From Chloroflexi bacterium GWB2_49_20 (GTDB lineage Bacteria > Chloroflexota > Anaerolineae > Anaerolineales > Villigracilaceae): a DNA stretch of 64,000 bases. The notes beneath the pieces were generated by a model, which did no database searches, was not told where the DNA came from, and saw nothing but the letters and a program-made list of their open reading frames with translations. The position numbers were made by a program, and so were the translations under genes. Position 1 is the stretch's first letter. Each line of letters begins with the position of its first letter. The stretch lies in assembly GCA_001796335.1 (NCBI GenBank), contig MGMF01000026.1, forward strand, positions 124,001 through 188,000. The letters run 5' to 3'. Below are positions 23,598-50,187 of the stretch, piece by piece.

Positions 23598-24206
23598 CCG
23601 TAGTTATGCGGACGATTGCAATATCTACGTGAAAACGCAACGCGCTGGAGAACGGGTAATGGAAAGCGTGAAAGAGTTTCTGGAAAAGAAGCTGAACCTG
23701 AAAGTCAACCCGAAGAAGAGCAAGGTGGAACGTGCTTGGCGGGTGAAATTTCTGGGATACAGTTTCCATAAACGTAACGGGGAAACAATGCTCCGCATAG
23801 CGAACCGGACAAAGGAACGTTTCATGGAGAAGATACGCCACCTGACCAAGCGTACCCGGTCAGGCAAGCTGGAAGACATTGTGAAAAGTGTGAACCAGTA
23901 TGTAATCGGCTGGATAGGCTACTACCGGCTGGCGACTACGCCGAGTGTGTACAAGGAACTGGATGAATGGATAAGGCGGAGGTGAGACAGATGGTCTGGA
24001 AGCGCTGGAAACGGGGCACAACACGTTATCAGGAGCTACGGAAACTTGGAGTACCCAAAGAACGAGCTGCACTTGGAGCAGTTGGGAAAAGCCCGTGGCG
24101 CATGTCCCGAACACCTGTGGTACACGAAGCTCTGAGCAACGCCTTTTGGCGCAGCACAGGGCTTGAAAGCATCGAAAAACGATACTTTATACTGCATTCT
24201 TGTTGA
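23598..24206 (+). pseudogene. Group II intron reverse transcriptase/maturase, 3' fragment, frameshifted
   Basis: The frame opens in the middle of the reverse-transcriptase active site: SYADDCNIYVKTQRAGERVM, with the catalytic YADD. It continues through the conserved KSKVERAWRVKFLGYSF and the maturase (X) domain YVIGWIGYYRLATTPSVYKE, and stops at DEWIRRR (23985). The next frame continues as VRQMVWKRWKRGTTRYQELRKLG, so one base is missing near 23984. The first RT blocks and all upstream intron domains are absent. This is a 5'-truncated, decayed intron-encoded protein fused to the mcrC relic. Confidence 0.85.
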
Positions 24207-24279
24207 ACCGCCGGATGCGGACCCGCATGTCCGGTGGTATGAGAGGGGGCTGTTAATCACCTCTCCCTACTCGATTTTA
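24204..24279 (+). mobile_element. Group II intron domains V-VI (3' end)
   Basis: GAACCGCCGGATGCGG, a three-base loop, then CGCATGTCCGGTGG form the domain V hairpin typical of bacterial group II introns. A domain VI-like stem (GAGAGGGGG ... CACCTCTCCCTAC) with an unpaired A follows. The 3' splice boundary is likely at about 24275-24279. Together with the maturase fragment this marks the intron's 3' end; the 5' half is missing. Positions 24280-24491 carry no gene I can support. Confidence 0.7.
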
Positions 24280-29556: not shown

Positions 29557-30054
29557 ATGAAAGATACAGTCGAAGTTTTTTTACAAGGACCAGGTCTTGC
29601 TATTACCCTGGTCAAGTTGCCAATAGATGGCAAAATCAGTGACCTTATTGAGCAGGCACGTGAAAAAGGTCTGAAAATTGGGGCGGATGAAAAGCCGGAT
29701 GTCTGGCTTGAAAACGCGGAAGAGCCTTTGAAGTCCGGTTCTTCATTGGCGGAAGCCGGCATCAAATCCCGCAGCAGAGTCCATGTGCATACCTGCCGGC
29801 AGATTCATGTCACCGTTAATTTCAACAATCAATCCCATCAACATCCTTTTATTCCATCTTCGACAGTTGGTGATGTCAAAGAATGGGCTGCCAAGAAGTT
29901 CAACCTGAAAGAGGTTGACGTTTCCGAATATGTTTTGCAGGTATGTAGAACGTCAAACCGCCCCAAGGAAGACACTCAAGTTGGGTACTTTGCCGAACCA
30001 GGTCAATGCACTGCGTGCTTTGATTTAGTCCCTGAGCAACGCGTGGAAGGCTGA
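29557..30054 (+). CDS. bilA: Two-domain ubiquitin-like protein (BilA-like)
   Basis: A 165-residue protein built of two beta-grasp (ubiquitin-like) repeats, about residues 3-80 and 84-158. Signs are the strand-turn-strand pattern TVEVFLQGPGLAITLVKL with the following helix SDLIEQAREKG, and in the second domain IHVTVNFNNQSHQHPF with helix VGDVKEWAAKKFNL. The two-domain plan is that of ISG15 and of BilA in bacterial ISG15-like antiphage systems. The chain ends in ...EQRVEG, so a glycine is already C-terminal and could be activated by the E1 without trimming. GAGGAG precedes the ATG. It is followed by E2, JAB and E1 genes in the order of bilABCD. Confidence 0.72.
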   Translation: MKDTVEVFLQGPGLAITLVKLPIDGKISDLIEQAREKGLKIGADEKPDVWLENAEEPLKSGSSLAEAGIKSRSRVHVHTCRQIHVTVNFNNQSHQHPFIPSSTVGDVKEWAAKKFNLKEVDVSEYVLQVCRTSNRPKEDTQVGYFAEPGQCTACFDLVPEQRVEG

Positions 30055-30068
30055 GGGAATTTGCTCCA

Positions 30069-30542
30069 ATGACACTGGACGAGCAGATTTTCCGCGAACA
30101 TATTGAGGGTGGTCCATTCCAAAGCGGGGTGGATCTTGGTAAATGGCAGTTAAACGACATCGCTTGGCCATATGTGTATATCAACGTCACAGCTATTTCA
30201 CATGAGGAATGGCCACCCTACTATTGTTTCCAATTTGAATGTGCAAACTATCCTGTGGCAGGTGTGACCGCCCGTCCCTGGGACTTGGAAAAGAAAGAGC
30301 CTTTGGATACGAAGAAATGGCCCGGTGGGAAAGACCGGGTCCCAAAGGTGTTCAACCCAGGTTGGAATAATGCGCAATGCTTGTACCTGCCCTGTGACAA
30401 GAATGCAATTAATGGTCATTCTGATTGGACCACCAAATACCCAAACTGGATTTGGAAAACTGACAGCGATATTACCCTTTACCTGGATGTGGTTTATGGA
30501 TTACTCAATTCAAGCGACTATACGGGACCTCGTGGCGCCTGA
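30069..30542 (+). CDS. bilB: E2-like ubiquitin-conjugating protein (BilB-like)
   Basis: A 157-residue protein with the look of bacterial E2-fold proteins from Ubl-E1-JAB operons: the block WPYVYINVTAISHEEWPPYY, then a central PGWNNAQCLYLPCDKNAI segment, and a C-terminal helix with DITLYLDVVYGLLNSSDYTG. The LYLPCD cysteine (Cys109) is the best candidate for the thioester-forming catalytic residue. It would take the ubiquitin-like protein from the E1 and pass it to a target; in the described Bil system the target is a phage structural protein. The gene begins 14 bases after bilA, and its 3' end overlaps the JAB gene. Assignment rests on context plus this cysteine block. Confidence 0.65.
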   Translation: MTLDEQIFREHIEGGPFQSGVDLGKWQLNDIAWPYVYINVTAISHEEWPPYYCFQFECANYPVAGVTARPWDLEKKEPLDTKKWPGGKDRVPKVFNPGWNNAQCLYLPCDKNAINGHSDWTTKYPNWIWKTDSDITLYLDVVYGLLNSSDYTGPRGA

Positions 30543-31017
30543 GCATCAAATCAGTTGTTCTTCAAGGTTATGGCGCCAGGGATTGACCGAATTAAGAAGA
30601 CGGGGCAAAAATCGCCATGAAAGTGGAGCATTTTTGCTTGGGCATCAGGAAGGAAGCAAACGCAGAATTTCCAAGTTCATCTATTACGATGATCTCGACC
30701 CACACTGCCTCGATACAGGTATAGTCGTCCTTGATGGTTCGGTCTTTGGAAAACTATGGAAAATTTGCCGGGACGTGGACATGAAAGTGATTGCAGATGT
30801 ACACACCCATCCCGGCATTCCACTCCAAAGTTTCACGGATCGAGCCAATCCCATGATCGGTGTCCCTGGTCATATTGCCATTATTGTTCCGGACCTGGCA
30901 CGCCGCATTGTAGGAGCTGAGGAACTCGGGGTTTATGAATATCTCGGTAATCATCGCTGGAAGGCATATTTGAAAAAAGATGTCCCCAGATTCTTTTATA
31001 TTGGTATGTGGAGTTAA
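30496..31017 (+). CDS. bilC: JAB/MPN-type deubiquitinase-like metallopeptidase (BilC-like)
   Basis: 173 residues if translation starts at the ATG at 30496; a GTG at 30532 overlapping the E2 stop codon is an alternative. It has the JAMM metal site: the catalytic glutamate in RHESGAFLLG, then VHTHPGIPLQSFTDRANP carrying His-x-His-Pro and the Ser/Asp ligands. JAB peptidases in bacterial ubiquitin-like operons trim the Ubl precursor or remove it from targets. Since the ubiquitin-like protein here already ends in glycine, deconjugation is the likelier task. It overlaps the E2 gene by 47 bases (or 11 with the GTG start) and ends one base before the E1 gene. Confidence 0.8.
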   Translation: MDYSIQATIRDLVAPEHQISCSSRLWRQGLTELRRRGKNRHESGAFLLGHQEGSKRRISKFIYYDDLDPHCLDTGIVVLDGSVFGKLWKICRDVDMKVIADVHTHPGIPLQSFTDRANPMIGVPGHIAIIVPDLARRIVGAEELGVYEYLGNHRWKAYLKKDVPRFFYIGMWS

Positions 31018-31018
31018 T

Positions 31019-32410
31019 ATGTCACAAGATGAAATCACCGGTGGTAAATTACACCGGCTCGCAAAACTTTTGATGGATACAGGCGAAGCATCCACTGTCA
31101 ATGAAGCCGAAGAAAAGCTGAAAGGATATCGTCTGGGTATCCATGTTGATAGGGATGTACTTGATTCGCCAGCTTATCAGGCTGGACTGCTAACGGCCAT
31201 CAATACGGGCCGGCGGTGTTTTCTTGGTGGAATTCTCATATTTGGAGACTTGAATGTGCCATTGAAAATACCGTGGCGACATTTTCAAACGGTTGCTGAT
31301 GCAGTCAAAGATTTGCAAGGAAAAGTCGTTGATAAATTGGATGCTTCAATTCCCCTGATTTCCTTCTCGGATGAATTACCTGAGGGTTGGGAAGGAGATT
31401 TCGGGGTAAAGCCTGCCATTCATGGCTGGTCGGGAGGCATCCTGCCCATTCAAGATCAATTTGATTTTTCAGGAAAAGAAATGTTCACACCTGCAGGTGT
31501 ACTTGCTGGTGCACTTGCTGTGTCCGAGGCATTTCAATTTGTCCGTGGAGGCAATTCAACCGTAGGGCACCGATCTGTCGGTATCTCTTTATGGAAACCT
31601 GCACGGGATGTTGATTGGTTGAATGCTGACCTCGGACCCAATCTTGCTTTTTTACCTCAAAAATTGTGGTTGATCGGATTGGGAAATCTTGGTCAAGCCT
31701 ATCTATGGACACTGGGTTTCCTCCCATATAAAGCAAAACATAAAATGAAAGATGATGTCAAATTGGTCCTTCAAGATACCGATTGTCTGGAGGAAGCCAA
31801 CGATAGCACTTCGCTTTTGACGGATCTTAATATGGTGGGGATGAAGAAGACAAGGGCAATGTCTGATTGGTGCGAACAATATGGGTTTCAAACATCGCTT
31901 ATTGAAAGAAAATTTGCGAATGATTTAAATGCAAACGATGAAGAGCCATATCTTTCATTGTGTGGAGTGGATAATGCCAAGGCGCGAGGAACCTTGGAAA
32001 AAGCAGGTTTTAAGAGGGTCCTCGAAGCCGGCTTGGGTAAAGGCGTGGAAGAATATTTATGTTTTCGGATGCACACTTTCCCAGCAAGTAAATCTGCGGA
32101 AAGCTACTGGGGTCAAAAGTTGGGCAAGGATGATGCTGAAAAACTGATCCAGCAACCTGCATATCAAGATCTTCATGAGCGAGGACTTGATCGGTGCGGT
32201 CTCACGGAATTAGCAGGTCGCAGTGTAGGAGCGCCTTTTGTTAGCGCAATTGCATCGACATTGGTTATCGCTGAGGCGCTACGAATGCTGAATGGTGGAG
32301 ATGCCATCGAAGTAATTGATGGCGATTTGAGATCTTTTCCAACATTGAACAAAGTGATTCCTATACAAATCAAACTGAAGGCTTTCAATCCAGGAATGAT
32401 TAAGGTATAG
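31019..32410 (+). CDS. bilD: E1-like ThiF-family activating enzyme (BilD-like)
   Basis: About 463 residues, with the ATG at 31019 one base after the JAB gene stop. The N-terminal 210 residues form an unassigned domain. The ThiF/E1 adenylation domain follows: KLWLIGLGNLGQAYL (glycine-rich nucleotide loop near residue 220), LVLQDTDCLEEAN (acidic strand), then SLCGVDNAKARGTLE. Near residue 393 the block DRCGLTELAGRSVGAPFVSA contains the best candidate catalytic cysteine. It would adenylate the C-terminal glycine of the ubiquitin-like protein and hand it to the E2. Order and content match bilABCD; related Bub-type operons cannot be excluded without a search. Confidence 0.78.
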   Translation: MSQDEITGGKLHRLAKLLMDTGEASTVNEAEEKLKGYRLGIHVDRDVLDSPAYQAGLLTAINTGRRCFLGGILIFGDLNVPLKIPWRHFQTVADAVKDLQGKVVDKLDASIPLISFSDELPEGWEGDFGVKPAIHGWSGGILPIQDQFDFSGKEMFTPAGVLAGALAVSEAFQFVRGGNSTVGHRSVGISLWKPARDVDWLNADLGPNLAFLPQKLWLIGLGNLGQAYLWTLGFLPYKAKHKMKDDVKLVLQDTDCLEEANDSTSLLTDLNMVGMKKTRAMSDWCEQYGFQTSLIERKFANDLNANDEEPYLSLCGVDNAKARGTLEKAGFKRVLEAGLGKGVEEYLCFRMHTFPASKSAESYWGQKLGKDDAEKLIQQPAYQDLHERGLDRCGLTELAGRSVGAPFVSAIASTLVIAEALRMLNGGDAIEVIDGDLRSFPTLNKVIPIQIKLKAFNPGMIKV

Positions 32411-34012: not shown

Positions 34013-34762
34013 CTAAGCCTCCTTCTCTTGCATGCGCTGGCGGAAGCGGAAAGACTCTCCAGTCAGTTCAACAATATGAGCATGATGGGTCAATCGATCC
34101 AGCAGAGCAGCAGTGAGGCGTTCATCACCAAAGAGTTGGATCCAATTGGCAAACTGCAAATTGGTAGTAAGGATCATGGCGGTTCTTTCATAAAGCTCAG
34201 AGCAAAAGGTAAATAGTGCATGAGCGCCATTGGGGGTAAAGGGGATGAACCCCAATTCATCCAAAACGATCAGATCCTGTTTGTGAGCCATTGAAATAAG
34301 TCGATGCAGGCGATTCTCTTCTTGAGCCAGTAACAACTCATTCACCAATCCAGCGGCTGTCCAGAAACGGACACGACGACCCATGCGGCAGGCTGCCAAT
34401 GCCAGTGAAATGGAAAGGTGGGTTTTTCCCAGGCCGGGATTGCCGATGAAGATCAGGGTTTCGTGTTTGGCAATGTAATCTCCACGTGCCAGATCCAGGA
34501 TACGGGCTTTGTTGAGGTTGGGGAGTGCTGAGAAATCAAAGTCGGCCAATTCTTTATGGGTTGGGAAATGAGCTGCTTTTACCCGATGTTGAATACGGTT
34601 TTGTTCACGAGATTGGACTTCGTTTTCAACCAGGGCTAACAAGTAGCGGTGATATTCCATGTTTTTTTGAGCAGCATCCTTTGCATAGGAGCGATAATAT
34701 TTGACAAAGGCTGGCAGATGAAGTTGGCGCAGATAGGTTTCCAATAAGGGGTCTGATTCCAT
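34013..34762 (-). CDS. istB: IS21-family helper ATPase IstB
   Basis: A 249-residue AAA+ ATPase of the IstB/DnaC type. Walker A is FIGNPGLGKTHLSISLA near residue 105 and Walker B is LIVLDELGFIPFT near residue 165. ILTTNLQFANW (sensor 1) follows near residue 200. IstB assembles on DNA and assists the IstA transposase in target selection. The start codon overlaps the istA stop. The protein is full length for the family and shows no disruption, so the element may be active. Confidence 0.93.
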   Translation of the reverse strand: MESDPLLETYLRQLHLPAFVKYYRSYAKDAAQKNMEYHRYLLALVENEVQSREQNRIQHRVKAAHFPTHKELADFDFSALPNLNKARILDLARGDYIAKHETLIFIGNPGLGKTHLSISLALAACRMGRRVRFWTAAGLVNELLLAQEENRLHRLISMAHKQDLIVLDELGFIPFTPNGAHALFTFCSELYERTAMILTTNLQFANWIQLFGDERLTAALLDRLTHHAHIVELTGESFRFRQRMQEKEA

Positions 34763-36276
34763 TAGCGCACCCCCACCAATTGATCATAGATACGTAGATC
34801 CACGGACTGACAGCCAACATTGGCCAGTTGGGGAAGGTTTGTCAAATCGATTGGATTAGCTTGGCGAACAGGCAATAACAACCTGTTCAGTTGATACATG
34901 ACCCCGTCCAACCCCAACATGCCACTCTCAACAGCGGCATCCACTGCTTTTTTGATCACGTCAGAAGAATGGATTTGGTGTAGTTTGAGGATGGAGATGA
35001 ATTCACGAACCCCAGGTCCTTCGGGTTTGTTTTCTTGAAGGCTGCGTAATAATTGTTCGTAACTTGCAGGCCATTTTTTGCGCCAATGGCGGACTGGTTG
35101 AGCATGTTCAAATGCTCCAGGACGTTGCTCAAGTAAAGAGATATAGTGCATTGGATCAAAAATATCCTCTTCACGGCCAAAACTGCGTCCATGGCTGGCA
35201 ATAACGGCTTCCAGGGATAACACTTCGATCTTGAATGGATAGGCCCTCAAAACCAATTGTTTGCCTGCATACCTATTGGGTACTGAATAGCGGTTGGTAT
35301 CATAGACAACCTGGCTGTATGAATTAGCTTTCACCGGCCGGGTTACACAAGCCGGATAGTCTTGTTTGGGTAAGGGCAACAAATGAACTTTGTCCAATTC
35401 TGCAAGTTCGGCAACTGGTGCCACTTGTCCACGGACGTGGCGATTTAGATCATTCTGGCAGCAATCCAACAAGATCTGGTTGAGTTCTTCAAAGGTATTT
35501 ATTCTCAAGAAAGGCGTGAAAAAGTTGCGTTGCACATAGCCGACATCATTTTCCACGCCTCCTTTTTCATGGCCTTGGGCGGGTGTACAGTAGCGGCTAT
35601 CAAACAGGTAATAGCTGCGAAATGCTTTGAAGGTTTCTTGTTCTTGCCGGTTATGCCCTTCCAGTATCTTGAATACGGCTGTTTTGAGGTTGTCATACGT
35701 TATGCGATGCGGGACGCCTCCCATAAAATGGAACCCCGACTCATGTGCTTCCAGGAAAGCTTCTTGTTTTTGAAATGGATATGCTTTCACAAAGCGCATA
35801 CGAGAATAATTCAACCGCATTACAAAAAACTGTACTTTGACCTGTGCTCCGGCCAGAATGACAACTGCTTCTCCCCAATCCACCTGTGCGTCCTGCCCGG
35901 CATCAAATTCAAGAGGCAGATAAGCTTTGCCTGCTTTTAGTTTTTTCTTGGTCTGGCAGATCGTGTTGTGTATATATCCTTCACTGCCGCTGTATCCCTC
36001 TTTTGCCAAAATTTCATAGATCTTGTGCCCGGTATACCGCTGTTTCCGAGGTTGGTTTTCGCTCTCCTTCAGCAATTCTTGGATCCGTTCCCGGTACTCG
36101 CCCAGTATGCTCGCTTCCCGGGGTTCATTGATTTGATATGGATCAGGCACTGCATGAACCAGTGCTTTCCGAATCAATCTCCGCCCGTGTCCATATTGTC
36201 GGCTGATCTCTCGGATGCTGAGACCTTCGTTATGATATGCCTTTCTTATCCGTTCGTAGTTTTCCACCTTTTTCAT
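34762..36276 (-). CDS. istA: IS21-family transposase IstA
   Basis: A 504-residue DDE transposase. The N-terminal helix-turn-helix (NEGLSIREISRQYGHGRRLI) is at residues 16-35. The rve integrase core begins at DAGQDAQVDWGEA (first catalytic Asp) near residue 130, with the second Asp near RITYDNLKTAV and the Glu in HEKGGVENDVGYVQR near residue 240. The C-terminal part is the usual Mu-transposase-like domain. It is intact and of normal length. It catalyses cut-and-join of the element ends. Confidence 0.93.
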   Translation of the reverse strand: MKKVENYERIRKAYHNEGLSIREISRQYGHGRRLIRKALVHAVPDPYQINEPREASILGEYRERIQELLKESENQPRKQRYTGHKIYEILAKEGYSGSEGYIHNTICQTKKKLKAGKAYLPLEFDAGQDAQVDWGEAVVILAGAQVKVQFFVMRLNYSRMRFVKAYPFQKQEAFLEAHESGFHFMGGVPHRITYDNLKTAVFKILEGHNRQEQETFKAFRSYYLFDSRYCTPAQGHEKGGVENDVGYVQRNFFTPFLRINTFEELNQILLDCCQNDLNRHVRGQVAPVAELAELDKVHLLPLPKQDYPACVTRPVKANSYSQVVYDTNRYSVPNRYAGKQLVLRAYPFKIEVLSLEAVIASHGRSFGREEDIFDPMHYISLLEQRPGAFEHAQPVRHWRKKWPASYEQLLRSLQENKPEGPGVREFISILKLHQIHSSDVIKKAVDAAVESGMLGLDGVMYQLNRLLLPVRQANPIDLTNLPQLANVGCQSVDLRIYDQLVGVR

Positions 36277-38220: not shown

Positions 38221-39171
38221 TTACAACCCCGCATTGTCCACAGGACCAGCCCGCCGATGAGCAATCTCTGTATCCTGATTTGTTTGCTTCAAGTAGCGCT
38301 GTAAAACAGTAATCCCCTCATGCCCCATTAATTTTGCTAGAGTATAAAGATCAGTTCCATTCCGGAGCATCGAGAGAGCAAAAGCACGGCGAAAATCGTG
38401 GGGAGTAGGTTTATCCACACTGGCTTCATGTGCTCTTCGAGTTAAAATTTGTCGTAATCCATCATACCCCAAACGCTCAGAACTGAAGCGTGGGTGAGTG
38501 ACCCATAGAGCTGAATTGTCATCCTTGCGGTGTCTAAGGTAGCGCCTAAGGGCTCGCTTTGATTGCCTACCAATATAAACGGTGCGTGGTTTGCGCCCTT
38601 TACCCTGCCTAATAAGAATGTCCCCATGGATAAGATCAATATCATCCATGTTTATAGTTAAGAACTCATTTGCTCTGGCACCTGTGTCAAGCAAGAAAAG
38701 AAAAATCGCTATATCCCGAACTCCAGTGAAAGAATTAGGAGGACAAACTTTTATCATCTGAGTTACTGTCTCAAACGATACTGGTTCCAGTGGTTCGGTT
38801 GGTACTTTAGGTGCTTTAACTCTATGGATAGGATTTGTCCAATTCCCCGGATCGACCTCATTTTCGTACCAATATAAAAAAGCCCTTAGAGTACGAAACG
38901 CGGCAAGTTTTCCACCTGGATTATGGCCTTTCTCTTCCAAGAAAAGAAGGTATTGGCGGATAAGAGTTGGAGTAATTTGAGTAATGTTTTTTACAGCTTG
39001 AGCTTCGCAGAAATTTGCAAACATTTTGAGTTTTATACGGTAGAAGGAAAACGTTCCACTAGCAACCCCGCCAGCTTTTCGGTCAATCAAAAAGGCTTCC
39101 ATCCAAGTTTCCAGGTAATCATCAACGTTAGAAACTTGAATAGTCCTCCGGCTCTCGATTTTTACTGACAT
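38221..39171 (-). CDS. Tyrosine recombinase/integrase, first of a divergent pair
   Basis: About 316 residues from the ATG at 39171. The N-terminal SAM-like core-binding domain (AFLIDRKAGGVASGTFSFYR) is followed by the catalytic domain: Arg in DTGARANEFL near residue 165, HDFRRAF (His-x-x-Arg) near residue 262, LMGHEGI, and the nucleophile Tyr in TVLQRYLKQT. All catalytic residues are present, so the enzyme looks active. It is a close paralogue of the divergent gene at 39442, with near-identical C-termini. A conserved leader hairpin spanning its ribosome-binding site precedes the start. It probably integrates or excises an element at the tRNA-Leu site between the two genes. Confidence 0.88.
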   Translation of the reverse strand: MSVKIESRRTIQVSNVDDYLETWMEAFLIDRKAGGVASGTFSFYRIKLKMFANFCEAQAVKNITQITPTLIRQYLLFLEEKGHNPGGKLAAFRTLRAFLYWYENEVDPGNWTNPIHRVKAPKVPTEPLEPVSFETVTQMIKVCPPNSFTGVRDIAIFLFLLDTGARANEFLTINMDDIDLIHGDILIRQGKGRKPRTVYIGRQSKRALRRYLRHRKDDNSALWVTHPRFSSERLGYDGLRQILTRRAHEASVDKPTPHDFRRAFALSMLRNGTDLYTLAKLMGHEGITVLQRYLKQTNQDTEIAHRRAGPVDNAGL

Positions 39172-39172
39172 A

Positions 39173-39201
39173 CGGCACACTCCTTTGTTTTTTGTGTGCC
39201 G
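39173..39201 (-). promoter_or_regulatory. Leader hairpin over the ribosome-binding site of recombinase 1
   Basis: CGGCACAC and GTGTGCCG flank the minus-strand AAAGGA ribosome-binding sequence, and the ATG follows one base later. The same dyad precedes the divergent recombinase. It could be a translational switch or a protein-binding site. Confidence 0.6.
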
Positions 39202-39206
39202 AATCA

Positions 39207-39264
39207 CCCCATATATATAGAGTAAAACGCCATAATATCGCCATGTAATCTATATATGGGGGTA
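39207..39264. repeat. att-like module 1 (CCCCATATATAT ... ATATGGGGGTA)
   Basis: CCCCATATATAT at 39207-39218 and ATATGGGGGTA at 39254-39264 form an inverted pair. An equivalent module lies exactly 150 bases to the right with the same internal spacing. Each module sits beside the leader of one recombinase, so these are likely recombinase core- or arm-type sites. Confidence 0.55.
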
Positions 39265-39308
39265 TAGTTATTAAGCCAAAAACGACGAAAAAGTGGCTTA
39301 ACCGATGT

Positions 39309-39361
39309 ACTTAAAATCCACCGGCCGCAAGGCTGTGAGGGTTCGACCCCCTCTCGCCCCA
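39309..39361 (+). tRNA. 3' end of a tRNA-Leu(TAA) gene (fragment)
   Basis: From the anticodon loop on (CTTAAAATCC) the sequence has the class II variable arm (CCGGCCGCAAGG), the T-arm GAGGGTTCGACCCCCTC and an acceptor strand TCGCCCC plus discriminator A. The 5' half is absent: bases before the loop do not pair with the anticodon stem and no GGGGCGA acceptor strand lies upstream. This is the typical tRNA tail left or carried by an integrase attachment site. Confidence 0.75.
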
Positions 39362-39414
39362 TATATATGGATTATACTAGGTAAAATCCGGCAAACCACC
39401 CAGATATGGGGGTA
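39357..39414. repeat. att-like module 2 (CCCCATATATAT ... ATATGGGGGTA)
   Basis: CCCCATATATAT at 39357-39368 overlaps the end of the tRNA-Leu tail, and ATATGGGGGTA follows at 39404-39414. Spacing is identical to module 1. The interior is only partly similar (GTAAAA present in both). Confidence 0.55.
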
Positions 39415-39416
39415 CT

Positions 39417-39440
39417 CGGCACACTAAAAGGAGTGTGCCG
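39417..39440 (+). promoter_or_regulatory. Leader hairpin over the ribosome-binding site of recombinase 2
   Basis: CGGCACAC, eight bases (TAAAAGGA), then GTGTGCCG form a perfect 8-bp stem. The loop and stem edge contain AAAGGAG, the ribosome-binding site, and the ATG is at 39442. It mirrors the leader of the divergent gene. Confidence 0.6.
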
Positions 39441-39441
39441 A

Positions 39442-40404
39442 ATGCTTTTAACAACCGAGACCCAGAGGACTATTAAGAATTCTGTGTGTGAAGAATACCT
39501 TTGGACATGGGCGGAAGCTTTCTTGAATGACCGAAAGTCCCGCGGAGCTGCAGAAGGAACGATCTACTTTTACAGCATGAAGCTTAAACTTTTCTTTAAT
39601 TATTGTGAAGCCTTTGCGATCGAGCGCATATCTCAAATAACAACTCCCTTCATTCGTCAATATATGCTTTCCCTGGAAGAAGCCGGCCATAATCCTGGTG
39701 GACGGCACGCGGCATTTCGTGTCCTGCATGCCTTCCTGAACTGGTTTGAAGTCGAAGCCGAGATGGACGGTTGGGTAAACCCCATCCATAAATTAAAAGC
39801 TCCCAGGGTCCCGACCGAACCTTTGGAACCTGTCTCGGAACTAACGGTTGTCCAAATGGTAAAAGCCTGCAAAAGAAATACGTTTACTGGAGATCGGGAC
39901 GCGGCAATTTTGCTTTGCCTGATAGATACAGGTGCCAGGGCTAATGAATTCCTTAATATTGACATGGAAGATATCAATCAGGCAATTGGGGATATTCTCA
40001 TCCGAAAAGGGAAGGGGAGTAAACCACGTCATGTTTACCTCGGCAAGCATTCCCGGCGCGCATTGAGAAAATATCTAAAACATCGCAAAGATGATAACCC
40101 AGCCCTGTGGGTGACTCTGCCACGCTTTGGATCGGAGCGAATTAGGTATGGCGGACTGCGGGAAGTGCTTCGTCGTAGGGCAGTGGATGCGAAGGTTGAA
40201 GAACCAACCCCACATGATTTCCGCAGGGCATTTGCCTTATCCATGCTCCGGAATGGAACGGATCTTTATACTCTGGCAAAATTGATGGGGCATGAGGGGA
40301 TCACTGTACTTCAGAGGTACCTGAAACAAACCTACCAGGATACAGAAGCTGCTCACCGACGTGCAGGTCCAGTGGATAATTCTGATTCATTGCGGTTTGT
40401 TTAG
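39442..40404 (+). CDS. Tyrosine recombinase/integrase, second of a divergent pair
   Basis: About 320 residues from the ATG at 39442. The layout is the same as the divergent gene: core-binding N-domain (AFLNDRKSRGAAEGTIYFYS), Arg in DTGARANEFLNIDME, PTPHDFRRAFALSMLRNGTD, LMGHEGITVLQRYLKQT with the tyrosine nucleophile, and the AHRRAGPVDN tail. The C-terminal 60 residues are nearly identical to the first copy while the N-terminal DNA-binding halves differ more, so both may act on related but not identical sites. All catalytic residues are present. Duplication, or two related elements in one attachment region, would explain the arrangement. Confidence 0.88.
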   Translation: MLLTTETQRTIKNSVCEEYLWTWAEAFLNDRKSRGAAEGTIYFYSMKLKLFFNYCEAFAIERISQITTPFIRQYMLSLEEAGHNPGGRHAAFRVLHAFLNWFEVEAEMDGWVNPIHKLKAPRVPTEPLEPVSELTVVQMVKACKRNTFTGDRDAAILLCLIDTGARANEFLNIDMEDINQAIGDILIRKGKGSKPRHVYLGKHSRRALRKYLKHRKDDNPALWVTLPRFGSERIRYGGLREVLRRRAVDAKVEEPTPHDFRRAFALSMLRNGTDLYTLAKLMGHEGITVLQRYLKQTYQDTEAAHRRAGPVDNSDSLRFV

Positions 40405-40964: not shown

Positions 40965-41725
40965 ATGAGATTGATTAAGACTTGTCTGAACCCAAAGACC
41001 AAAAGCACAGCAGAAAAGAGGTTATTTCAGGAATTTCAGAAAAATAACTGGTCGGATACAATTCGCCTGCACTCATTGGAATTACCGGAACACGAATATA
41101 AAGGAATAGGAGAACTGGATTTTATTCGTTTCTCCACAGGGAATGTTTGCTCTGGAGGTGAAGGGAGGCCGAATTTCCTGTCAGGACGGAATATGGAAGT
41201 ATGAAGACCGCTGGGGGAACAAACACTCGAGCAGTGAAGGTCCTTTCCAACAAGTTAGATCAGGTATGTTCAGCTTATGGGAAAGGGTTAATGCCAAAAA
41301 CCAATCGTCAAAATTAAAAGACATCATCATGGGCTATGGAGTGGTCTTCCCGGATGTGGATTTCGAGGTGCAGGGAGAAGGATGGAATCAGGAACTCGTG
41401 CTCGATAGAATTAAGTGGACTGAAAAAGGAGTGGATGTCTATTCTAGGGAAAATCGCCGAAGACTTGAACGTAACCTCCCAGCTGGAATAATATTGTTGG
41501 AGTTTCATGATGCTTTTATAGTTTCTGTGGACTACGCCAAAGCAATTGAAATAAAGAATCTAATCCTAGATACAGAATGGGATATTGTTGTTATTGATGA
41601 AGCCCATCAAGTTGGTAAACCTCATCAATCCCAACCAAATGTAAAAATCAAAAAGGATCGCTGGTACCTCGCTGTTGACCTTTCGAAATCATTGAAAGTA
41701 AAACATCTTATAACCCGCAAGGGTA
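40965..41725 (+). pseudogene. Decayed NERD-domain / helicase relic
   Basis: The first frame (ATG 40965, AGGGAG upstream) encodes the start of a NERD nuclease-related domain ending GIGELDFIRFSTGN. A frameshift near 41143 moves to the next frame, which continues FALEVKGGRISCQDGIWKYE, with the NERD motif. After about 100 residues the frame becomes helicase-like: RNLPAGIILLEFHDAFIVSV, then EWDIVVIDEAHQVGKPHQ (DEAH box), a segment typical of SNF2/DEAH helicases of BREX/DISARM type. No ATP-binding loop or second lobe is present. It appears to be a chimera of two broken defence genes. The frame runs into the opposite-strand aldo/keto reductase at 41726, so its end is artificial. Confidence 0.65.
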
Positions 41726-42682
41726 TCATGGACGTAGCAGATTCTCGATTTTCACCACCTCTTCCTTGCTGAGTTGAAGATTCGTTGCACCGATGACACC
41801 CTCAACTTGTTTTGCACTGCGCGCTCCCACGATCGCGGCTGTAACTGCAGGGTGAAGAAGCGTCCATGCGATCGCTACCTCTCCCGGTGAACGTCCATGT
41901 TGCACTCCGATCACCCTTAGGCATTCAACCAGTGCAAGATTATGGGTGAGTTTGGGTTCATTAAACTCGGGATCGCGTTTCCGCCAGTCATTATCCGGGA
42001 GATTCGCAGCTCGTTCTCGTGTCATCGCGCCTGTGAGCAGTCCCGAGAACATCGGTGAATAGACGATCACCCCGATGCCTTCCCTTTTACAAAACGGAAG
42101 TATCTCCGTCTCAATCTCCCTTCGTATCAATGAATATGGGGGCTGCAATGAGGTGATCGGCGCGATCGCTTGCGCGCGCTGCATTTGCTCCACATTGAAA
42201 TTGGAGACACCGATCCACCGTATTTTCCCCTCACGTTGAAGCTTGGCCAGAACTCCCCAAGTAGCATCGATCTCGGCTGGGACGTCCGTAGGCCAATGAA
42301 CCTGATAGAGGTCGATGGTATCCACCTGTAAACGTCGCAGGCTCTCCTCGCATTCGCGGCGGATGGAATCACCTTCAAGTACCTTGAAAATTTTGCCCTC
42401 CTGATCCCAACGCAGGCCGCATTTCGTAAAGATGTAAGGGCGAGGTCCAGACCAATCCTTCAGCGCACGTGCCACAATCTCTTCAGAGTAGCCAAGTCCA
42501 TAAGCTGCTGCCGTGTCTATCCAGTTGATCCCAAGGTCTAGTGCGCGATGGATACCTTCAATGGAATCTTTATCCTCTTGCACACCCCATGCATATTCAT
42601 AGCCGGTGCCGCCAATAGCCCACGCGCCAAACCCGATGGTCGTGATTTGCAAATCAGAATTGCCAAGTCGTTCTTTTTTCAT
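41726..42682 (-). CDS. Aldo/keto reductase
   Basis: About 318 residues from the ATG at 42682 (MKKERLGNSDLQITTIGFGA). Family marks are GINWIDTAAAYGLGYSEEIV (Asp and Tyr of the catalytic tetrad near residues 50-58), PYIFTKCGLRWD (Lys), VDTIDLYQVHWP (His) and the late NADP-binding segment AIVGARSAKQVEGVIGATN. It reduces aldehydes or ketoses with NADPH. It is the last gene of the long minus-strand sugar operon, about 100 bases after the FGGY kinase, so it may process an aldehyde or ketose intermediate. The start chosen removes a 17-residue extension with no ribosome-binding site. Confidence 0.88.
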   Translation of the reverse strand: MKKERLGNSDLQITTIGFGAWAIGGTGYEYAWGVQEDKDSIEGIHRALDLGINWIDTAAAYGLGYSEEIVARALKDWSGPRPYIFTKCGLRWDQEGKIFKVLEGDSIRRECEESLRRLQVDTIDLYQVHWPTDVPAEIDATWGVLAKLQREGKIRWIGVSNFNVEQMQRAQAIAPITSLQPPYSLIRREIETEILPFCKREGIGVIVYSPMFSGLLTGAMTRERAANLPDNDWRKRDPEFNEPKLTHNLALVECLRVIGVQHGRSPGEVAIAWTLLHPAVTAAIVGARSAKQVEGVIGATNLQLSKEEVVKIENLLRP

Positions 42683-48570: not shown

Positions 48571-49323
48571 TTATTGATAGTGTGAATCGAACTGCACAGG
48601 AGGGAGCAGCCGGTAAGCTTTATGGTTCGGCCAGGTTTGCACAACGCGGAAAGCCTCCGCATATTTGCAGCCACACTGGAAACCACGCATCTTGTTGACG
48701 ATTTCCACATATTCGAACCAGTCCTTGAAACCAAACTGCTTCTCGAGGAAATCACCATGCTGGCTGGAGTGCTGCCGAAAAGCCAGGCACTTTTGTTCAA
48801 ATTCCTGGGAGATGTCAACATAATGGTCAGGTGGAGCGATACGGTTCGTACCGGAGGTTTCGAAGTAAAATACGGTCGGGATATGGTCGATGGGCGGGTA
48901 TTGGGTGTCAGGAATGTTGGCAACACTTGCCCAAATGGCAGCCCGATAAGCCAGCTCGCCGACGTTTGAATGGTCATGGGTATAGTCATCCCGATCATGG
49001 GTTAGGATCACATCCGGGTTGGTACGGCGGATCACATCTACGACCTTCTTCCAAGTTGGGTTGTCTAACCAGACCTCGCCATCTTGGTATCCCAGCATGA
49101 TCAGCTCAGCACCGATCACATTAGCAGCCTTCTGTGCTTCAACAGCGCGAATTGCTTCGATCTCTGGACCGCTTAAAGTTTTGGAGCCTACATTACCCGT
49201 ACATGCAGTCGCGATGAAAACCTTGTGGCCTTCTTTGACATAACGGATCAGCGTGCCAGCGCAAGCTACTTCAATATCATCCGGGTGAGCACCAACTGCC
49301 AGGACGGTAATTTTTTCACGCAT
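48571..49323 (-). CDS. PIG-L family deacetylase, copy 1
   Basis: About 250 residues from the ATG at 49323. The zinc motif VGAHPDDIEVACAGTL is at residues 9-24, and ILTHDRDDYTHDHSNVGELA carries the second His/Asp pair near residue 100. PIG-L (LmbE-like) enzymes remove acetyl groups from GlcNAc-containing or other N-acyl sugars. It is strongly similar to the next gene upstream throughout, so this is a tandem duplication. It sits between the dehydrogenase genes and the ABC transporter. The gap to the ABC ATPase (48448-48570) holds no gene. Confidence 0.88.
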   Translation of the reverse strand: MREKITVLAVGAHPDDIEVACAGTLIRYVKEGHKVFIATACTGNVGSKTLSGPEIEAIRAVEAQKAANVIGAELIMLGYQDGEVWLDNPTWKKVVDVIRRTNPDVILTHDRDDYTHDHSNVGELAYRAAIWASVANIPDTQYPPIDHIPTVFYFETSGTNRIAPPDHYVDISQEFEQKCLAFRQHSSQHGDFLEKQFGFKDWFEYVEIVNKMRGFQCGCKYAEAFRVVQTWPNHKAYRLLPPVQFDSHYQ

Positions 49324-49440
49324 GATGTTATTTTCTCCTTTCAAAGGTCTGCACTCGTCGAAAAGCAGAAACTAACCGGTCGGGCGAATTGACAGGGTCT
49401 TTACTATTTTGATGTAGACTCAATTCAAGATTGCGCGATG

Positions 49441-50187
49441 TCAACGCGTACCAAGCTGGACTGGTGGGAGCAGCCGGTAAGCTTTCTGGTTTGGCCAGGT
49501 TTGCACGATGCGGAAGGCTTCCGCATATTTGCACCCGCACTGGAAACCGCGAAATTTATTGACCACTTCCAGAGCTTCGAACCAGTCTTTCACGCCAAAT
49601 TGTTTCTCAAGGAAATCACCATGCTGGCTTTCGTGCTGTCGAAAGGCTTCCACTTTTTGCTCATATTCCTGAGAAATATCAACGTAATAATCTGGTGGCG
49701 CTACGCGATGTGCGCCGACGGTCTCGAAATAGAATACGGTCGGGATATGGTCGATAGGTGGGTATTCAGTGTCGGGAATATTTGCAACACTGGCCCAGAT
49801 TGCCGCCCGGTAGACCATCTCACCCACGTTGGTATGATCGTGAACATAATCATCTCGTTCGTGAGTAATGATTATATCGGGGTTGGTGCGCCGGACGAGG
49901 TCAACATACTTTTTCCAGGTTGAGTTCTCCTGCCAGACTTCGCCATCCGGAAAACCTAGCATGATCAGTTCGGCCCCGATCACATCAGCAGCCTTCTGCG
50001 CCTCGATGGCGCGGATGGCTTCGATCTCCGGCCCGGTATGCACTTTGGAGCCAACGTTACCGGTGCAGGCTACCGCCATATAGACTTTGTGACCTTCTTT
50101 GACATAACGGATGAGAGTGCCAGCACACTGCAACTCAATATCATCTGGATGTGCCGATGCACATAAAACAGTCAATTTTTTAGTCAT
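49441..50187 (-). CDS. PIG-L family deacetylase, copy 2
   Basis: A 248-residue paralogue of the adjacent copy: ASAHPDDIELQCAGTLIRYV at the N-terminus, ITHERDDYVHDHTNVGEMVY near residue 105, and the shared C-terminal block FRGFQCGCKYAEAFR. Both copies keep all zinc-site residues, so both are probably active N-deacetylases; divergence may give different substrates. GGAGG precedes the ATG. About 92 bases separate it from the dihydrolipoamide acyltransferase gene. Confidence 0.88.
   Translation of the reverse strand: MTKKLTVLCASAHPDDIELQCAGTLIRYVKEGHKVYMAVACTGNVGSKVHTGPEIEAIRAIEAQKAADVIGAELIMLGFPDGEVWQENSTWKKYVDLVRRTNPDIIITHERDDYVHDHTNVGEMVYRAAIWASVANIPDTEYPPIDHIPTVFYFETVGAHRVAPPDYYVDISQEYEQKVEAFRQHESQHGDFLEKQFGVKDWFEALEVVNKFRGFQCGCKYAEAFRIVQTWPNQKAYRLLPPVQLGTR

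Follow-up and report, generated by a model that had tools for sequence, protein, structure and literature searches.

A probable junction of two genomic islands at tRNA-Leu(UAA), with divergent integrase genes and leader hairpins, in an Anaerolineales genome

Results

Two divergent integrase genes and a tRNA-Leu fragment

The stretch of DNA analysed here (the window, 64,000 bp) corresponds to positions 124001–188000 of contig C26 in a draft genome of 3.37 Mb. Two tyrosine recombinase genes within it, int1 (38221–39171, reverse strand; 316 aa, XerA/XerC-like; Pfam Phage_integrase, 8e-30) and int2 (39442–40404, forward strand; 320 aa; Phage_integrase, 1.3e-27), are both intact, are 69% identical to each other, and diverge from a 270-bp region between them. 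They have the catalytic domain with R-K-HxxR-H-Y residues that identifies tyrosine recombinases; these positions are present in int1, and the catalytic residues are invariant in alignment A1. The initial annotation had described twin divergent recombinases, and these, together with all of the other elements it named, are indeed found where it placed them. Nearly all of the named relatives of the integrases come from Anaerolineales/Anaerolineaceae metagenome genomes, the single isolate being Bellilinea caldifistulae. Scans of the genome and viral contigs with a single protein returned no relative, but an alignment query did find relatives, and these are also present in contigs classed as viral; in plasmid and phage collections the relatives are distant only (<30% identity).

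When searched as DNA against its own genome the region matched four further places. A tRNA-Leu(UAA) gene is represented in the region by its 3′ part, which begins in the anticodon loop and ends with the discriminator base (39309–39361, forward strand); the complete gene is situated 71 kb upstream at C26:92184–92267, and further tRNA-Leu fragments lie at 114 kb and 163 kb on the same contig and at 47.5 kb and 70 kb on contig C28. ARAGORN and Rfam detected no tRNA in the window, because the tRNA there consists of the 3′ part alone. On either side are two 55-bp modules of the form CCCCATATATAT...ATATGGGG, module 1 at 39207–39261 (reverse strand) and module 2 at 39357–39411 (forward strand), with identical internal spacing and with starts exactly 150 bp apart; the window has only two occurrences of CCCCATATATAT and the whole 3.37-Mb genome has three. 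In each module a repeat of roughly 10 bp, of the AGGC.....TGGC type (TGGCG-type in module 1), is present twice in tandem. The same module is present behind the full tRNA-Leu gene, and module 1 is an inverted copy of it (its reverse complement is 76% identical over 75 bp, E 8e-4). The first five bases of module 2 are the 3′ end of the tRNA and, because the window carries the tRNA-Leu 3′ part, its CCCC is the acceptor end. The earlier account of the modules was thus right as to their positions and spacing, and missed the tRNA fragment, of which CCCC is the 3′ end, and the inverted nature of module 1. We considered the 150-bp spacing as a designed feature and rejected this, since the spacing is 131 bp at a homologous twin locus on C28 and is therefore without special meaning.

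The core TACTTAAAATCC (39308–39319, forward strand) is situated at the boundary between the element and the tRNA-Leu anticodon loop and would contain the crossover region. Its start is within about 1 bp of the midpoint between the modules, which are almost symmetric about the tRNA anticodon-arm core. Because they are inverted and disposed nearly symmetrically around the core, modules 1 and 2 resemble the P and P′ arms respectively of an attachment site, and the term att-like, used of them previously, is apt in that they flank the tRNA-Leu core. The layout is that of an attachment site with a pair of arms, although the role of arms is one that we infer, since a lambda-type arm-binding domain would not fit into proteins of Xer size. 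On such a scheme Int would recombine the tRNA anticodon-arm core, with the paired inverted modules serving as the arms. The spacer between module 1 and the core contains an additional inverted repeat, TTAAGCCA...TGGCTTAA (39271–39301), and a similar one is found at the ends of tRNA-Met islands.

A probable junction of two islands

A check proposed with the initial annotation was to look for single-copy versions in relatives, and these exist. The order tRNA-Leu, module, hairpin, int is present as a single copy in three genomes (G005, G080 and G274), together with a degraded tRNA-module-hairpin-int locus in G077 and a tRNA-hairpin-int locus without the module in G083. A genome of a different family, G353, contains a frameshifted copy of int1 that is 96% identical in protein and 92.9% identical in DNA over 1,144 bp. 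The match begins at the stop codon of int1 and extends to the final base of the tRNA fragment, with unrelated sequence past both limits: beyond the tRNA end other sequence replaces module 2, and the opposite side holds different cargo. In G353 chromosomal sequence follows the int1 end, and the tRNA end has a different integrase. Since the similarity stops exactly at the tRNA end, we read the twin set as a junction of two tRNA islands. The extent of the match defines the right end of the int1 island, and it shows that the int-att unit was transferred recently without adjoining cargo.

The sequence shows a left island that ends with int1, its leader, module 1 and the spacer, joined in the anticodon loop to the 3′ part of the tRNA, and a right island that starts with module 2, a leader and int2, with a polarity opposite to that of the int1 island. 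The earlier suggestion of two related integrative elements is in keeping with this, as single-element relatives exist and the int1 end alone adjoins chromosome in another family. On the contig, the far (right) end of the int2 island could not be located. In both the G383 element and the 22-kb island at C28:47.5–70 kb, int is at one end and the other is a D end, which lacks int, and the tRNA-Met group has D-type right ends, again with one int and one D end per island. Islands of this kind appear, then, to be bounded by int at one end and by a D end at the other, in either polarity, so that int-int and D-D junctions would be expected where islands abut; a D-D junction is present at C28:47.5 kb. 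The borders that characterize a tRNA island, one with a full tRNA and one with a 3′ fragment, are seen both at C26:92184–92267 with its associated fragments, and in G353 (contigs C15 and C17).

Two other arrangements need to be weighed. The window could represent an attP-like joint, from a tandem array or a circular form, of a single element in which two divergent integrases share one attP. The second twin locus on C28, where int2 is a pseudogene, is compatible with this, as is the presence in G353 of integrases at both tRNA-Leu borders, but all of the better-bounded elements (G383 and C28 47.5–70 kb) have one int and one D end, and the chromosome next to the int1 end of G353 and the differing integrase at its tRNA end argue in the same direction, such that we regard a single twin-integrase element as improbable. 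The inversion system envisaged in the initial annotation, in which the segment between the integrases would flip, has almost no likelihood in our estimation. Although the modules and the early-codon sites described below are inverted relative to each other, DNA inversion calls for two complete inverted recombination sites and there is a single core (39308–39319) between the integrases; the half sites within the genes are not complete core sites, each half of the region is explained as the end of a separate island, and two abutting islands account for the arrangement. We thus think it likely that this region is the junction of two genomic islands integrated at tRNA-Leu(UAA), an assessment that takes in the roles we propose for the Int site, the hairpins and the half sites.

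Several related loci differ in their arrangement. A degenerate tRNA-Leu fragment and module at C26:114161–115550 of the genome under study (G000; loci L014 and L002) accompany a third intact integrase in the opposite orientation, 75% identical to int2 and without a leader hairpin or modules. In G383 (C2:173529–179304; L152/L173) two full-length tRNA-Leu genes 5.7 kb apart bound an element that looks as if it brings a complete tRNA. Contigs break near tRNA-integrase sites in four genomes (G005 C288, G080 C209, G083 C215 and G079 C122), as expected if such sites are repeated or variable in the population.

The int1 island contains a BilABCD ubiquitin-like conjugation defence operon (29557–32410, forward strand; PADLOC BilA-D, E 6.6e-52 to 8.6e-169) and, near its right end, an IS21-type transposase pair (IstB and a protein with a Mu-type C-terminal domain; 34013–36276, reverse strand). 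A NERD/SNF2-type helicase fragment beside int2 (41143–41772, forward strand) is probably a remnant of the int2 island cargo. The cargo of the C28 island is metabolic (branched-chain amino acid ABC transport, M20 peptidase, amidohydrolase, MTTB and GDC-P), and there are no virion or conjugation genes among ten of its proteins. Elsewhere in the window are an Rfam match to a group II intron domain (RF00029, 43 bits; 24206–24275, forward strand) and tandem duplicated LmbE-like deacetylase genes (48592–50154, reverse strand; 77% identical in DNA).

Leader hairpins of the integrase genes

Both integrase genes are preceded by a hairpin that contains the Shine-Dalgarno sequence, with arms CGGCACAC and GTGTGCCG separated by 13 nt at int1 (39173–39201, reverse strand; z -3.7) and by 8 nt at int2 (39417–39440, forward strand; z -5.6), where z compares the folded 45-nt leaders with dinucleotide shuffles. 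In each leader AAGGAG is at the loop/stem border and the stem ends 1 nt before the ATG. These hairpins had been pointed out at the start, and their stability is above that expected by chance. In the tRNA-Leu clade the hairpin loop leaves the Shine-Dalgarno sequence exposed. We rejected a terminator as an explanation, as there is no U-tract, the hairpin abuts the start codon, and its distance to the tRNA varies.

Leader structure was surveyed in 50 non-redundant tRNA-adjacent integrases and the displaced copy at C26:115550 by folding the 45 nt before the chosen start, the starts being picked automatically by a Shine-Dalgarno rule that probably misplaced some of them (e.g. L033, L055 and L276). 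For integrases that follow a tRNA on the same strand the mean z is -3.07 (n=29), and for the three G000 genes beside tRNA fragments it is -3.42; 72% of these 32 downstream integrases are at z<-2. Divergent integrases upstream of a tRNA have a mean z of -0.57 (n=18; 11% at z<-2), and control genes from the same contigs have a mean of -0.08 (n=138; 5% at z<-2). The same-strand set differs from the divergent set (p=2e-5) and from the controls (p=2e-13), with the qualification that position relative to the tRNA is clustered on the tree (four changes) and the loci are therefore not fully independent. There are exceptions, in that L159 and L160 are downstream and have no hairpin and the divergent L128 has one. 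Shine-Dalgarno pairing does not differ between same-strand and divergent loci (p 0.24), leaving occlusion of the Shine-Dalgarno sequence as such unsupported; it is in the stability of the leader structure as a whole that the sets differ significantly. A scan of viral contigs with the leader-hairpin pattern gave no match.

The hairpin arms are wholly different between clades (e.g. GGTGGTCTC/GAGATCACC, AAACTCCTTTCATC/GATGAAAGGAGTTT and CCTTCCTC/GAGGAAGG), the loop is variable, and the stem usually ends 0–2 nt before the start codon, a combination that argues for selection on RNA structure at sites where read-through from a tRNA would be expected. Were the palindromes instead DNA operators for Int or another repressor, their near perfection and the conservation of the CGGCACAC arms inside the tRNA-Leu clade would be readily understood, but a loop that ranges from 6 to 14 nt, arms that change via G-U pairs, unrelated arm sequences in other clades, adjacency to the start codon and enrichment only downstream of tRNAs are difficult to reconcile with operators, which we consider a rather unlikely explanation. 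The initial annotation had suggested that a recombinase could switch its own expression by binding its leader; the leader palindrome resembles an RNA hairpin more closely than it does a protein operator, and a separate candidate site for Int binding is present within the early codons of each gene (see below). In several clades that differ in their tRNA target (e.g. L034, L135, L159 and L305), a CCATATATGG-like palindrome recurs 20–40 bp ahead of the integrase leader.

Structure at the start region of a gene that lies downstream of a host promoter, as in the same-strand loci, is what is anticipated for an element gene protected from read-through, and we propose with moderate confidence that the hairpins typical of tRNA-downstream integrases provide such protection: by covering the start region, the hairpin would prevent read-through transcripts from the tRNA promoter from yielding integrase. 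Our confidence is moderate because of the clustering on the tree, the Shine-Dalgarno comparison and the automatic choice of starts, and because no promoter giving a hairpin-free int transcript was identified.

Copies of the target tRNA in the first codons of int

The first 20 or so codons of int contain a copy of half of the anticodon arm of its own target tRNA. At the locus described here these candidate Int half sites are in codons 6–10 of both genes, with GAGAGCCGGAGGACT in int1 (39142–39156, reverse strand), a weak match to the host tRNA-Leu, and AGACCCAGAGGACT in int2 (39458–39471, forward strand), to be compared with AGACGCAGTGGACT in tRNA-Leu. Comparing the first 60 nt of int with the anticodon arm of its own tRNA in 36 non-redundant integrases gives a mean of 8.93, against 6.03 for other tRNA types (0/300 permutations), 5.7–6.3 for later windows of the gene, and 5.9 for codon-shuffled versions (0/300). 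A separate set of 17 integrases replicates this (7.76 against 5.93; 0/300). Examples are AGACGCAGCGGA for tRNA-Leu, ATAAGCCCTTGGTC for tRNA-Met (14/14, reverse strand) and TAGAGCGCCTGACT for tRNA-Arg (14/14). For the most part, the coding strand has the copies of the 5′ side and the opposite strand those of the 3′ side; because the core is symmetric, an Int protomer would then have the same orientation in each case. The simplest reading is that the copy is probably an Int-binding half site, which would serve in autoregulation or as an accessory att site.

The int1 half-site sequence is repeated at the D end of the array (C26:92340–92362), and the D ends of tRNA-Leu islands match the 5′ region of int, strand for strand, at up to 22/23 bases, the match following the local int. 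One explanation would be that the D end encodes an RNA antisense to int mRNA, as in IS10, IS30, IS200 or ISPpu9. When D ends are read outward from the tRNA, they show complementarity to int codons 3–12 or thereabouts (up to 22/23, for the G079 D end and the G005 int) and co-vary with the local int, but the similarity is also expected from a shared Int-binding site or if D is a relic of the int 5′ end, and for G383, G011 and G096 it is not above that of shuffles; we therefore view an antisense RNA as unlikely.

Discussion

Many integrative elements are situated directly 3′ of a highly expressed tRNA gene and, to our knowledge, how an integrase is silenced next to a tRNA gene has rarely been addressed. 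A position-dependent hairpin offers a directly testable answer. The half site within int, for its part, ties the integrase to its target within one gene. If Int binds the half site, then the half site of a new integrase could predict its tRNA target, and bacteria would have a counterpart of the archaeal integrases that have an att site in int. Taken as a whole, these features may describe a bacterial integrase family in which the early codons of int include a half site of the target tRNA that follows every switch of target, and in which a start-codon hairpin is present mainly when int is downstream of the tRNA. Target recognition, self-regulation and insulation from the host tRNA promoter would then travel together as a single movable unit of about 1.1 kb, passed between islands whose cargo differs. 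We are evenly balanced on this proposal in its entirety. Searches of open full texts, which cover few of the subscription papers, turned up neither an integrase leader hairpin that depends on position relative to a tRNA nor a bacterial integrase gene that contains a half site of its target.

The islands have points in common with several known systems. Tycheposons are described, in a paper that cites the work on Prochlorococcus, as tRNA-associated cargo elements with tyrosine recombinases (PMC10872708), and the likeness, which is one of outline, is in the tRNA border, the adjoining tyrosine recombinase and the metabolic cargo (the C28 island). Differences from the tycheposons are the Anaerolineales host, the leader hairpin, the tRNA half site in int, and the possible location of int at either end.

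In IS10 and IS50, fold-back of the RNA protects the transposon gene from outside transcription. In Tn916 the T1 terminator insulates the element from flanking host transcription (PMC11658703). The likeness to both is that an element gene would be guarded against a flanking host promoter, as we propose here from sequence; the difference is that here a tyrosine integrase is beside a tRNA and the structure is at the start codon rather than being a terminator. In ISPpu9 a 5′-UTR structure blocks the ribosome-binding site and an antisense RNA acts as an activator (PMC8450116), which is similar in the 5′-UTR structure and a possible antisense partner, although the gene there is a transposase and not a tRNA integrase.

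Recombinase binding sites beyond the core have precedents. The attI site of integrons has the DR1 and DR2 sites for IntI, and as in that system there would be a recombinase without an arm-binding domain and extra candidate binding sites beside the core, whereas the candidate sites here lie within the recombinase gene and mimic the tRNA target. The archaeal SSV-type 'suicidal' integrases have an att site in int, and gene-disrupting integrases are described as exclusive to archaea (PMC8371274). The integrases described here resemble them in having tRNA target sequence near the 5′ end of the integrase gene and in cleavage that would border the anticodon loop. However, a suicidal integrase has the attP core in int and integration splits the gene, while int here is intact when integrated, with only a half site in the gene and the core outside it.
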